Shown piece after piece: positions 36,954-40,966 of a DNA stretch of 64,000 nt. The notes under the pieces are model-generated. The model did not search any database, was not told where the DNA came from, and worked only from the letters and a program-made list of their open reading frames with translations. Made by a program: the position numbers and the translations under genes. The stretch's first letter is position 1. Every line of letters begins with the position of its first letter. Source of the DNA: Syntrophomonadaceae bacterium (GTDB lineage Bacteria; Bacillota; Dethiobacteria; DTU022). Location: positions 1 to 64,000 of the forward strand of contig PWYU01000058.1 of assembly GCA_003567725.1 (NCBI GenBank). Reading direction: 5' to 3'.

Positions 36954-38261
36954 TTACTCTTCTGGAGACGGCACTATTAGCGATATAACATGATAGGCTG
37001 GATCGAAATTTTCTTCTGCAACAGCCATAGCTTCCTCTATTGTAATATCCTGCAAGACAGAAGGAAGCTCAAACATTTCATTATCTCTAAACCGGTAAGC
37101 CAGGTAGTTATTAGCTATGAATTCAAGAGAGTTAAAGCGCCTGATATAACCACCTAAGATTTTCCGGCGATGCCGTTCAAATTGTTCTTTAGTAATTCCT
37201 TCTTTTTTTACATTTTCTATTGCTTCCATAATGCGGCTGTACAACTGATCGGGATCTCTTGTTTCTCCGCCGATCATAGCATAACCATAATTAATTTCAT
37301 TAGTGTATTCAGCCCCAAAGTTTTCATCGATCAGGTTGTCCCGGTAAAGTTCATTATAAAGCTTTTCACTTGAGCCAAAGAGAATATCTAAAACCAGCTC
37401 CATCAATATTTCACGTCGCATCTTTTGACGGCTTTCCAATTTAGCTACTATATTATCTTTTAAACCGATAAACATGATTGGCTCAGATACAACAAGCTCC
37501 TGAACAGTTTTTTGCTGATTAATTTCAAAAGGTTCATCAGGGAATTGGCGCACTATTTGACCCATGGGGCTGTAATCTCGGCCCAGCAGGTTTTTTTCTA
37601 CCTGCCGCCCCACCTCCTCCGGATCGAGGTTACCAACTACAAAGACGGCCATATTGCTGGGATGGTAAAAAGTATGATAACAGCGATATAGCAATTCCGG
37701 GCTTATTTTATTGATGCTTTCTATAGTCCCGGCAATGTCATTACGAACGGGATGCATCTGATATAGTCCTGCCAGGAGGTTAAAAAAAACTCTCCAGTGG
37801 GGGTGATCTTCATACATTTTTATTTCCTGTCCGATAATGCCCTGTTCTTTCTGCACTGTTTTATCAGTAAAATAAGGTTCCTGCACAAAATTGAGCAAAA
37901 GGTCAAAGTTCTGTTCAAAGCTGGCAGTGCAGGAAAAGAGATATGAAGTCTGGGTAAAGGATGTAAAAGCATTGGCAGAAGCCCCCAGGGCGGCGAAGCG
38001 ATCAAATACATTGCCCCGTTCATCTTCAAAAAGCTTATGCTCTAGAAAGTGGGCCACTCCATCGGGTAATTCTGTAACTTCAGGATGGGGTTCGACTCGA
38101 AAGCGGTTATCTATAGAACCAAAACGAGTGGAAAAGACAGCGTACTTCTTCTGATAACCGGTGCGGGGCAAGACATACAAATCCAGACCAGGATGAAACT
38201 GGTAGTGATAAAGGGTTTCATGCAGTTCCCGGTTTTCAATTAACTTTAAATTCTCTCTCAT
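36954..38261 (-). CDS. M16-family zinc peptidase (YmfH-like)
   Basis: 435-residue pitrilysin/processing-peptidase relative. The inverted zinc motif HFLEH is present at about residue 70 in GVAHFLEHKLFED. The downstream Glu-containing segment follows, and the typical second half carries NYGYAMIGGETRD. In B. subtilis the ymfF-ymfH pair has this arrangement. It forms a pair with the upstream M16 gene, overlapping it by four bases, and probably works as a heterodimer whose active half is this one. Substrate unknown. Confidence 0.88.
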   Translation of the reverse strand: MRENLKLIENRELHETLYHYQFHPGLDLYVLPRTGYQKKYAVFSTRFGSIDNRFRVEPHPEVTELPDGVAHFLEHKLFEDERGNVFDRFAALGASANAFTSFTQTSYLFSCTASFEQNFDLLLNFVQEPYFTDKTVQKEQGIIGQEIKMYEDHPHWRVFFNLLAGLYQMHPVRNDIAGTIESINKISPELLYRCYHTFYHPSNMAVFVVGNLDPEEVGRQVEKNLLGRDYSPMGQIVRQFPDEPFEINQQKTVQELVVSEPIMFIGLKDNIVAKLESRQKMRREILMELVLDILFGSSEKLYNELYRDNLIDENFGAEYTNEINYGYAMIGGETRDPDQLYSRIMEAIENVKKEGITKEQFERHRRKILGGYIRRFNSLEFIANNYLAYRFRDNEMFELPSVLQDITIEEAMAVAEENFDPAYHVISLIVPSPEE

Positions 38262-39550
38262 TTTATAGAGCCTCCTTCCTGGGGCCGCAAGACATACACG
38301 GTATCGAGTTTTACTCTTTCAGCTGCCTCCTGGATTTCTTGTTTTCCCACTGTTTCAATACCTTTAATTAATTCCGCTGCGGTGTACGTTTTACCACCAA
38401 TTGAGCCGTCAAGATGGCTAATTATTAATTGAATAGGACTGTCTTGCTGGGAACGCAGGCGGTTAATCAAACCCTGCCTGGTATTGTCAAGTTCCTCATC
38501 GCTAATATTGCCGGCAGCCATATCTTCAAGCTGGCGCTCAATTATTTCCCGGGCATTATCATAATCTTCATAATTAATTCCGGCAGCAATAATCATCAAA
38601 CCTTTATGCTTTTCCAGGCGAGAGTGAACATAGTAAGCCAGGCCCGCTTCTTCACGCACTTTCATAAACAGTTTGGAATGCGGAAAACCGCCTAAAATAC
38701 CGCTATAGAGTAAAAGAGGGCAATACAAATCATCACCGTAAGCAGTATATGTACGTAATCCGAGGACTATCTTAGCCTGGTTAACGGGAAGCGCTTCCTC
38801 GTAATACCTGACTTCTTGCACTGTTTTTTTCGTATCTGTAAGGGGCAGCCGGTTTTGCTCTTTCAAACGGGACAAACTAAAGGCTTCACCAGTCGCGTCC
38901 AAAACCTCTTTTTCCTTTAAATCTCCAATCACATAGAGATCAATAGGATTGGCAGAAAAAACATGGTTGTAATATTGATAAAGACTCTCTTCATTTATAT
39001 TATTATAATCTTCTATTGAACCGAGTTTATAGGTGCCAAACCTTTCTTCTGAACACATCAAAGCAATGCAACGTTCATAAGCATAAGTTGCTTTATCGTT
39101 AAGCATAGCTTTAATATCTTTTATCAGTTGTTTTTTTTCCTGTTCTACATACTCTTTTTTAAAACTCCCGTTTTCAAGCAATGGATCGCCTGAAACAGAG
39201 CCAAGGACGGACAAACCTTCTTTAACCAGGGCTTTTCCTTCACCCAGGTACTTATCATGGGCAGTTTCGCAGCCAAAAGTCATGATGTGCCTCTCTCCGC
39301 TTTTTATTATATCTGCAGTAAGATCGGCTCCATACAGGTTCTCGAGCTTGCGCTGTAAAATTAGTTTGTCGGGATACTGCCTGCTGCCCTGTTCCAAAAC
39401 GGCTGGTAACAGGGCACTCATAGCTGCCAACTTACTGTTCAGCTCCTGATGGATAAACAAAGCGATGGAAATAGTTTTAAATTTGTCTGTTGGCATAAAA
39501 AATAGCCTGATTCCGTTTGGCAAATGATGCTCTATATAATTTGTAATCAA
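38258..39550 (-). CDS. M16-family protein without zinc motif (YmfF-like)
   Basis: 430-residue partner of the preceding M16 peptidase. It has the M16 fold signatures (PNGIRLFFMPTDKFKTISIALFI, LYVIGDLKEKEV, LRSQQDSPIQLI), but the HxxEH position reads as ALLPAVLEQGS, so it is probably non-catalytic. The track begins at 39574 inside a REP repeat. GGGGAGG seven bases before TTG 39550 identifies the real start, LITNYIEHHL. The REP copy at 39567-39607 lies immediately upstream. Confidence 0.85.
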   Translation of the reverse strand: MITNYIEHHLPNGIRLFFMPTDKFKTISIALFIHQELNSKLAAMSALLPAVLEQGSRQYPDKLILQRKLENLYGADLTADIIKSGERHIMTFGCETAHDKYLGEGKALVKEGLSVLGSVSGDPLLENGSFKKEYVEQEKKQLIKDIKAMLNDKATYAYERCIALMCSEERFGTYKLGSIEDYNNINEESLYQYYNHVFSANPIDLYVIGDLKEKEVLDATGEAFSLSRLKEQNRLPLTDTKKTVQEVRYYEEALPVNQAKIVLGLRTYTAYGDDLYCPLLLYSGILGGFPHSKLFMKVREEAGLAYYVHSRLEKHKGLMIIAAGINYEDYDNAREIIERQLEDMAAGNISDEELDNTRQGLINRLRSQQDSPIQLIISHLDGSIGGKTYTAAELIKGIETVGKQEIQEAAERVKLDTVYVLRPQEGGSIK

Positions 39551-39566
39551 AATCAATCCTCCCCTG

Positions 39567-39607
39567 TGGGACACGGGGACAGGTCCCTTGTCCCAGGTTA
39601 TGTAAAC
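39567..39607. repeat. REP element, outer left copy (41-bp perfect inverted repeat)
   Basis: Begins TGGGACACGGGGACAGG, continues through TCCCTTGTCCCAGG and ends TTATGTAAAC. It is the exact reverse complement, over 41 bases, of 40798-40838. It is itself an imperfect hairpin (GGGACA..GGGAC / GTCCC..TGTCCC). The two copies flank a RAYT gene. Confidence 0.85.
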
Positions 39608-39620
39608 TATACAGCTAATG

Positions 39621-39652
39621 GGATAGAGCGACAGGTTCCTTGTCTCAGACTA
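39621..39652. repeat. Degenerate REP, inner left copy
   Basis: GGATAGAGCGACAGGTTCCT and TGTCTCAGAC align with the outer REP with several changes, in the same orientation. Found 14 bases inside the outer copy. Confidence 0.55.
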
Positions 39653-39689
39653 ACTGCCCAAAATTACCTTACTTCTTTTTTCAGGTTTT

Positions 39690-40448
39690 TTAAAGCCTGG
39701 CGATATAACTCTTTGAAATACCCGTTATCCTTGATAACTGCCTGATTGTCAAACCTTCAACTGCTTTAAGTTCAGTCAAGATAAAATCTCTGTCATTTTT
39801 ATTTATTTTCGATAGTTCTGCTAGGTTTGAGTTGTTATATTCTTCCAGCAAAGCTCTAACGTTTTGATCGGTAAGCTTCTTTTTATCATCTATATCAAGG
39901 CAGACATCACTATTTTGTTTTTCCATAAATGTTTTTAATAGCTTGATCCCTTGATTACAGTTAGGTGAAAAAATATTTAAGGCAAATTCTCGATCAACTA
40001 AGATTGGTTCATGCAAATACTCACTTAAGCTGGTCCAGTTATAATCAAGAACATTTTTAACCAAACCAGCCTTCAGCGGGTTCTGATGAATGTACCTTAA
40101 AACAGTCAAAAAGTAAATATCATCTTCAACCGTTTCACTTCTATATCTTTCTTGGAATAAATGACCGCATCGCCCATGTTTGTTATTATACCAATAAACA
40201 TAACTACCACTTATTCTTTTTACCACCAGGGACAAGGGCTCTGAAATCTCTTTAAGCAAGATATGAACGTGGTTGTCCATGAAGCAGTATCCGTAAATCA
40301 AATAATCACTAAGCTTTTTATAGCGTAATAAAATTTCGTAAAACCTTTTTTTGTCCTCACTGTCGTAAAATATGTGATCTTTATTAATACCTCTCATAAT
40401 GATGTGATAGATGCCGGATTCACTTTTTCCTCTAGCTCGTCTTGCCAT
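39690..40448 (-). CDS. REP-associated tyrosine transposase (RAYT, TnpA_REP family)
   Basis: 252-residue member of the Y1/HUH superfamily that nicks REP hairpins in relatives. The HUH pair is in YGYCFMDNHVHILLKE. The presumed nucleophile tyrosine region SYVYWYNNKHGRCGHLFQERYRS and the helix YLTVLRYIHQNPLKAGLV-like block are intact. The C-terminal part (AVEGLTIRQLSRITGISKSYI) is a DnaA-C-like helix-turn-helix seen in many RAYTs. Perfect 41-bp REP copies in opposite orientation lie outside both ends, with degenerate copies inside them. GAGGTGGTG precedes the ATG. The gene looks intact, so it may be active or domesticated. Confidence 0.9.
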   Translation of the reverse strand: MARRARGKSESGIYHIIMRGINKDHIFYDSEDKKRFYEILLRYKKLSDYLIYGYCFMDNHVHILLKEISEPLSLVVKRISGSYVYWYNNKHGRCGHLFQERYRSETVEDDIYFLTVLRYIHQNPLKAGLVKNVLDYNWTSLSEYLHEPILVDREFALNIFSPNCNQGIKLLKTFMEKQNSDVCLDIDDKKKLTDQNVRALLEEYNNSNLAELSKINKNDRDFILTELKAVEGLTIRQLSRITGISKSYIARL

Positions 40449-40688
40449 TTCACCACCTCACAAGTATTTTAACTTAATTCCATCTAAAAACAAACACACA
40501 AATATCAAGAATAATTAATCTGAATGTATTTACACCTTCAGCTCTTGAATACAGGGATTTAAATATTCCTTGTTATGATTAAATCCTTCCATAACAGATT
40601 AATCCACTTATGCATTATTTATAACCTCTTCTTCATGAAAAATAAATTTATTCTATATCATCTTCTTTTCCATAAACCCCTGCCTTTT
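40449..40688. other. AT-rich leader of the RAYT gene
   Basis: Sequence between the RAYT start and the inner right REP copies. It presumably contains the RAYT promoter, but I find no clear -35/-10 pair. Confidence 0.35.
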
Positions 40689-40743
40689 GGGACAAAAGAC
40701 CTGTCTCCGCGTCTCAGGACCTCTTTTCTCTGTCCTATGTCTC
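40689..40743. repeat. Degenerate REPs, inner right copies
   Basis: GGGACAAAAGACCTGTCTCC with GCGTCTCAGG, then a worse copy GACCTCTTTTCTCTGTCC, both inverted relative to the left-hand copies. They mirror the inner left copy at 39621, so the transposase gene lies in a nested pair of inverted REPs. Confidence 0.55.
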
Positions 40744-40797
40744 AAACAACTTAGCCCGCACTTCTTAATCTCCGCCTGGATCAATAAAAACAAAATG

Positions 40798-40838
40798 GTT
40801 TACATAACCTGGGACAAGGGACCTGTCCCCGTGTCCCA
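40798..40838. repeat. REP element, outer right copy (41-bp perfect inverted repeat)
   Basis: Begins GTTTACATAACCTGGGACAA and ends CCCCGTGTCCCA, the exact reverse complement of 39567-39607. It ends about 50 bases before the tRNA-Arg gene. Confidence 0.85.
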
Positions 40839-40891
40839 GGTTTGACTTGTATTGGGGGTGGTGGTATCATAGCAGTGAATAATTCAGCCAG

Positions 40892-40966
40892 GCGCCCGTG
40901 GTGAAAGGGATATCACGCAGGCCTCCGGAGCCTGAAGTCGGGGTTCGAATCCCTGCGGGCGTACCA
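40892..40966 (+). tRNA. tRNA-Arg (anticodon CCG)
   Basis: 75 nt with encoded CCA. The acceptor stem GCGCCCG pairs with CGGGCGT (a G-U at the first pair). The anticodon stem is CAGGC/GCCTG and its loop CTCCGGA gives anticodon CCG. The T-arm GGGGTTCGAATCCC is canonical. It reads the rare-to-moderate CGG codon. Confidence 0.95.

Follow-up and report, generated by a model that had tools for sequence, protein, structure and literature searches.

The 64,000-nucleotide stretch of DNA analysed here (the window) comes from a Syntrophomonadaceae genome (G000) and contains a single-copy RAYT gene between identical inverted hairpins, the cores of which recur almost unchanged at other sites of the genome. 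We consider it probable that this element is a TIRtron, in which a resident single-copy Y1 RAYT strand-transfers hairpin cores among existing sites, and that the cores decay after RAYT has been lost. The system bears on the role of RAYTs in their hosts and on the way in which REP families are kept homogeneous. A sister species that shares the hairpin sites but apparently lacks RAYT allows insertion, which is old and common to both, to be separated from upkeep, which is seen only where RAYT is present. What is unusual in these genome comparisons is the concerted change of the cores, which stay identical in the species with RAYT and have decayed in the one in which none was detected.

A RAYT gene between nested inverted hairpins

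The RAYT ORF is flanked by perfect 41-bp inverted repeats (44 bp at 98%), which scored 42 compared to at most 13 across 40 shuffles (Table 1). Each outer repeat is composed of a 29-bp palindromic core, TGGGACACGGGGACAGGTCCCTTGTCCCA, for which single-stranded DNA folding gave a z of about −5, and a 12-bp tail pointing inward. A preliminary description of the window had reported a complete RAYT gene inside nested inverted REP-like hairpins, with degenerate inner copies in mirrored orientation, and both observations were confirmed.

Table 1. Positions in the window of the RAYT element, its repeats and the features that border them
Feature	Position	Strand	Details
Peptidase gene as listed, presumably M16-type	38258..39574	-	left-hand boundary of the site
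Left outer TIR	39567..39607	+	perfect reverse-complement match (100%) to 40798-40838; core 39567-39595, reading GGGGACAGG inward; inward tail GGTTATGTAAAC
Inner decayed core copy	39619..39647	+	23/29; orientation as left TIR
RAYT/TIRYT gene	39690..40448	-	complete ORF, 252 aa
Inner decayed core copy	40688..40716	-	24/29; mirrored
Right outer TIR	40798..40838	-	tail GTTTACATAACC 40798-40809; core 40810-40838
Putative tRNA-Arg promoter	40842..40870	+	-35 TTGACT 40842-40847, -10 TATCAT 40865-40870; read from sequence
tRNA-Arg(CCG)	40892..40966	+	right-hand boundary of the site

The RAYT unit separates two divergent transcription units. The true start of the peptidase, which we take from its sequence to be of the M16 type, probably lies downstream of the listed GTG, after a Shine-Dalgarno sequence (39558-39564), with the left TIR beginning some 2 bp further upstream. 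The putative tRNA-Arg promoter adjoins the right TIR on the outside, and GTTTGACTTG recurs in occupied as well as empty relatives. Since the TIR edges touch the peptidase Shine-Dalgarno on one side (within 39558-39567) and the putative tRNA-Arg −35 box on the other (within 40838-40847), the unit may affect either the peptidase gene or tRNA-Arg.

The 252-aa ORF matched Pfam Y1_Tnp (E=5e-15) and NCBIfam REP_Tyr_transpos (NF047646), the latter with 64.8 bits, which is under the curated cut-off of 80. Its HUH-Tyr domain spans about residues 12-126 and is followed by a C-terminal helical extension. The HUH residues H60/H62, Tyr119 and N123-P124 were invariant in 28 aligned sequences, and the motifs NHVH and YIHQNP are found, the second of which has the Y---NP signature of class 2 with L replaced by Q. 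The best solved relative of the predicted structure model (pLDDT 88) was 4er8, a RAYT bound to a REP hairpin (E=5e-7). In the model, helices are located at residues 194-251 and the last 60 residues are helical; several HTH profiles weakly matched residues 223-252 (E 0.01-0.2), while other members reached 2e-4. The gene is single copy in the genome and its nearest paralogue is 49% identical at the amino acid level.

The core belongs to a dispersed family of near-identical hairpins

A genome-wide count of REP copies and their orientation, which the preliminary description had proposed as a check, gave 24 core copies (within one mismatch) in the 2.39-Mb draft genome, 22 of which are perfect at 29/29. 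Most clusters are REPIN-like mirrored pairs with the tails inward. All checked copies are intergenic and located at gene borders, many of them 10 bp or less from stop codons. Identity among the copies stops abruptly at the core edge, the information content dropping at once outside the 29 bp. A conserved GT[AG]G was absent at both feet of the 24 copies, and the exact core was not found in viral contigs. When up to three mismatches were allowed, the core type was found 26, 17, 24 and 18 times in G000, G034, G038 and G040, respectively, and 0-4 times elsewhere. The two other RAYTs of the genome (C40 and C52) have hairpin families of their own, CACAGGGGGACGGTTCTTYTGTG and TGTCANAGGGACGGTTCTTTTGACA, which together are present at only 12 exact motif sites.

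Two copies, L009:3666 and L015:1855, showed 7-9 bp of strong extra complementarity directly outside the core, which gives the impression of a core inserted into the loop of a pre-existing hairpin. Extended flanking complementarity around the cores was weak overall (141/5000 shuffles) and was dropped.

Hairpin ends are found across RAYT clades of the bacterial family. Because a score of GGGAC hairpins over all flanks would be biased by stem selection, inverted repeats were identified from left-right similarity before their self-complementarity was assessed. Such repeats border 29 of 37 RAYTs in clade A and 9 of 10 in clade B, and the arms were self-complementary beyond shuffles (p=9e-17 for clade A and 2e-8 for clade B; as the rows are related, these combined values are underestimates, although they leave no doubt about the direction). 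All but one of the clade-A and clade-B arms contain GGGAC, and the stems differ from RAYT to RAYT. In an independent count, GGGAC hairpins pointed inward in 41 of 74 clade-A flanks and outward in 5, with about 1 expected. For subclass-2.1-like proteins, these data suggest recognition of a hairpin that combines a RAYT-specific stem with a common GGGAC motif. In the third clade, C (L106-L123), the hairpin ends of the RAYTs contain different cores, namely GGTGTCWGACACC, GGGGTCAGG and GCCAGGC.

The tRNA-Arg/peptidase site in related genomes

In G034 and G038, a RAYT (53-56% aa identity) with similar TIRs occupies the tRNA-Arg(CCG)/peptidase gap and is oriented towards the peptidase as in G000, and in G014 a tRNA-adjacent RAYT is followed by two extra ORFs before the peptidase. 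Together with that of G000, these RAYTs form one clade (100/98 in the RAYT tree) spanning three genera. In the sister species G007 (83% nt identity), the RAYT body has been deleted, and the 5′ start region of RAYT and a decayed left TIR remain. The same-clade RAYTs at the same site and the remnant in G007 therefore indicate that the unit is old here. As far as the genome comparison goes, RAYT is inherited at this site and has been kept over a genus-level time span, during which it was lost several times; repeated insertion into one spot is the less likely alternative. Empty sites, a second feature that the preliminary description had singled out for comparison, are present in G004, G027, G032 and G035 as short gaps without RAYT or TIR. 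No target-site duplication was readable between occupied and empty sites, the intergenic DNA being too diverged.

A scan of genome contigs brought five loci, from Dethiobacter sp., Clostridiales and Bacillota MAGs, among which there was no close strain of the same species. The Dethiobacter MAG L187 contains a 54%-identical RAYT with a core that differs in one base. As this RAYT lies in flanks without a match to our locus, RAYT relocation or transfer may be possible on longer time scales. The earlier proposal that the element could still be a mobile unit may hold in that long-term sense; at this site, RAYT is resident. In G001 (L062), the tRNA-Arg/peptidase gap contains an unrelated ORF and hairpins of another GGGGAC family, GGGGACGTTTC, which is cognate to a different RAYT of G001.

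Cores at shared sites in genomes with and without RAYT

The hairpins at sites common to G000 and G007 are one-to-one orthologous. At L011, for instance, the hairpin directly follows a stop codon that G000, G007 and G001 have in common, and L016 is an orthologous REPIN with an alignable spacer in G000 and G007. Among seven orthologous cores, most of which were found via their perfect G000 copies, we counted 1 lineage change in G000 compared to 32 in G007 (p=8e-9). A G007-led search independently reached the L009 and L016 sites, where the cores of G000 are either intact or differ at one base. The mean paralog divergence of the cores was 0.01 in G000 and 0.26 in G007. Furthermore, core position 8 is C in 7/7 G000 copies and G in 7/7 G007 copies. 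Because the sites are orthologous and position 8 differs at all seven loci, the comparison indicates that the cores evolve in concert in place and not by new insertion. Homogenisation has not reached the inner copies at 39619 and 40688, a point that speaks against upkeep by RAYT.

No RAYT was detected in G007, a 77%-complete draft that could hold a copy elsewhere. G001, which is also without RAYT at the site, showed the same decay trend at two sites, and G004, G005 and G009 had no recognisable core at most of the shared sites. This comparative evidence, with essentially one clean loss event, suggests that the hairpins stay identical in place when RAYT is present and decay when it is gone. We infer, mainly from the contrast with one sister species, that the RAYT protein causes the upkeep of the cores, rather than host recombination.

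In a second genus, G034, G038 and G040 carry species-specific cores at three sites (A-C), mostly identical within a site, and no recognisable copy was found in G035, G036, G037 and G039 where these were examined. G040 is REP-rich, yet no intact cognate RAYT was found in its draft. At site A, the corresponding intergenic gap of G036 and G037 (L223, L225) instead contains a hairpin of clade-C type, AATAAGTT...AACTTATT, and G037 also has an apparent decayed GGGGAC hairpin there.

A model for core upkeep and its alternatives

In the mechanism that we propose, RAYT would bind the single-stranded hairpin via the RAYT-specific stem and the common GGGGAC motif, and Tyr119 would nick beside the hairpin. 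The cores would be strand-transferred onto existing hairpin sites and seldom onto new intergenic sites. The biochemistry of the E. coli RAYT (PMC8266576) serves as the analogy for hairpin recognition, nicking and strand transfer. The RAYT gene and its flanking TIRs would stay put and be inherited, while the roughly 24 dispersed cores would be copied and rewritten in place, which would keep them identical; after loss of RAYT they would decay neutrally. It is possible, and we propose it tentatively, that RAYT-type transposases persist in general by rewriting 29-bp cores in place, in a manner akin to gene conversion, the protein and its sites forming one concerted system in which the sites would become neutral and decay upon deletion of RAYT.

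If ordinary gene conversion of the RecA type homogenised the dispersed cores, RAYT would not be needed. Concerted evolution is what such conversion typically leaves behind, and the process was proposed for REPs in 1988 to judge from the title by Higgins cited in PMC3116915. However, the homology ends sharply at 29 bp, which is short for homologous recombination, and G007 (83% nt identity) shows decay at the same sites with no detectable RAYT, so that we regard gene conversion by the host as unlikely. Purifying selection could also keep the hairpins perfect as 3′-end or terminator elements, the link to RAYT being incidental. The many copies within 10 bp of stop codons would fit this, as would the mttB-linked copy (see below), which is identical in six genomes, some of them without a RAYT at the site. 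The same sites are decayed in G007 and empty in congeners, though, and selection for a fixed sequence leaves the change of one position at all seven loci unexplained; we consider this explanation improbable.

Two further alternatives invoke recent movement. The near-identity of the 24 copies could reflect a burst of insertion in this lineage only, but the REPs have one-to-one orthologues in G007, and for one site also in G001, with exactly matching positions, among them the stop-codon junction of L011 and the REPIN spacer of L016. This contradicts a burst at the checked sites, and although unchecked clusters could be new, we consider it very improbable as a general explanation. Least credible is a recent IS-like jump of RAYT and its TIRs into the tRNA-peptidase gap. 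The outer TIRs are identical and empty sites exist in G004, G027, G032 and G035, as would be expected from a jump. Nevertheless, RAYTs of the same clade are at the site in three genera (G034, G038 and G014 in addition to G000), G007 has a deletion remnant and the gene is single copy; the common site already contradicts a jump, which would have to be saved by postulating a hot spot with repeated independent insertions. The preliminary description had taken the perfect outer pair to suggest recent movement or gene conversion. The latter reading stood, whereas the former was not supported: almost all cores of the genome (22/24) are identical, which accounts for the identity of the outer TIRs. Upkeep of the cores by the resident RAYT is the reading that we consider most likely.

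Relation to known systems

The element fits the TIRtrons (TIRYTs) of Di Nocera et al. 2013 (PMC3733652) and not the canonical GTAG REPtrons. TIRtrons have GGGGWSAS repeats, some of which are self-complementary and which can be dispersed as families arranged in dimers or clusters; the 2013 paper names neither Firmicutes nor Clostridia in its main text. As in TIRtrons, a tyrosine transposase gene lies between inverted repeats unrelated to GTAG REPs, GGGGACAG in the core fits GGGGWSAS exactly, and the TIR is part of a dispersed family (24 copies, mostly in mirrored clusters). In contrast to TIRtrons, self-complementarity and an inward GGGAC are here the rule within the clade, with RAYT-specific stems.

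Quentin et al. 2018 (PMC6006769) placed such proteins in TnpA_Y1 subclass 2.1, which corresponds to Bertels group 1, and found no REP-like secondary structures beside them. Members of this subclass have the Tyr motif Y[IV][HE]LNP and a C-terminal HTH-like domain (Bac_DnaA_C, HTH_23, HTH_28). Our RAYT shares with them NHVH, FQ replacing the W motif, Y..NP, a length of about 240-260 aa and the TIR motif GGGG[AT][CG]A[CG], and its C-terminal region, with weak HTH matches, may correspond to the HTH-like domain. Unlike in subclass 2.1 as surveyed, significant REP-like hairpins adjoin the gene. The RAYT is therefore only a candidate member of subclass 2.1, although we regard the missing hairpins as a gap of the earlier survey and not as a defining feature.

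RAYTs are single-copy and vertically inherited, and in E. coli REPINs are commoner in RAYT-positive genomes (2021 Genetics paper, PMC8049555). Both features resemble what we observed, with hairpins commoner in RAYT-positive genomes, and the intergenic, dispersed and mirrored hairpin pairs also resemble the canonical REPtron/REPIN systems of E. coli and Pseudomonas (PMC3116915, PMC8049555). Different from these are the absence of GTAG at the foot, the far smaller number of copies and the longer protein with its C-terminal extension. The HUH/Y1 fold and subterminal hairpins are shared with IS200/IS605 elements (IS608, ISDra2). Unlike these, our element has one copy, a fixed inherited site and a dispersed hairpin family, and no TnpB was seen alongside. 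Multiple near-identical whole units, the mark of an active IS200/IS605 element, are absent here, with one RAYT copy.

A hairpin linked to mttB

A hairpin of the core family, TGGGACAAGGGGACAGGTTCCTTATCTCA, is located just 3′ of an mttB-like gene and 5′ of a terminator-like hairpin (G000:C92:3247-3275, L148), and also at L134, L136, L138, L154 and L196. An Rfam search with it gave no match. Six genomes from two genera carry it unchanged and a seventh with one mismatch, and some of the genomes that carry it have no RAYT at the tRNA-Arg/peptidase site. This hairpin is possibly a co-opted 3′-UTR element, or was carried with a transferred operon.
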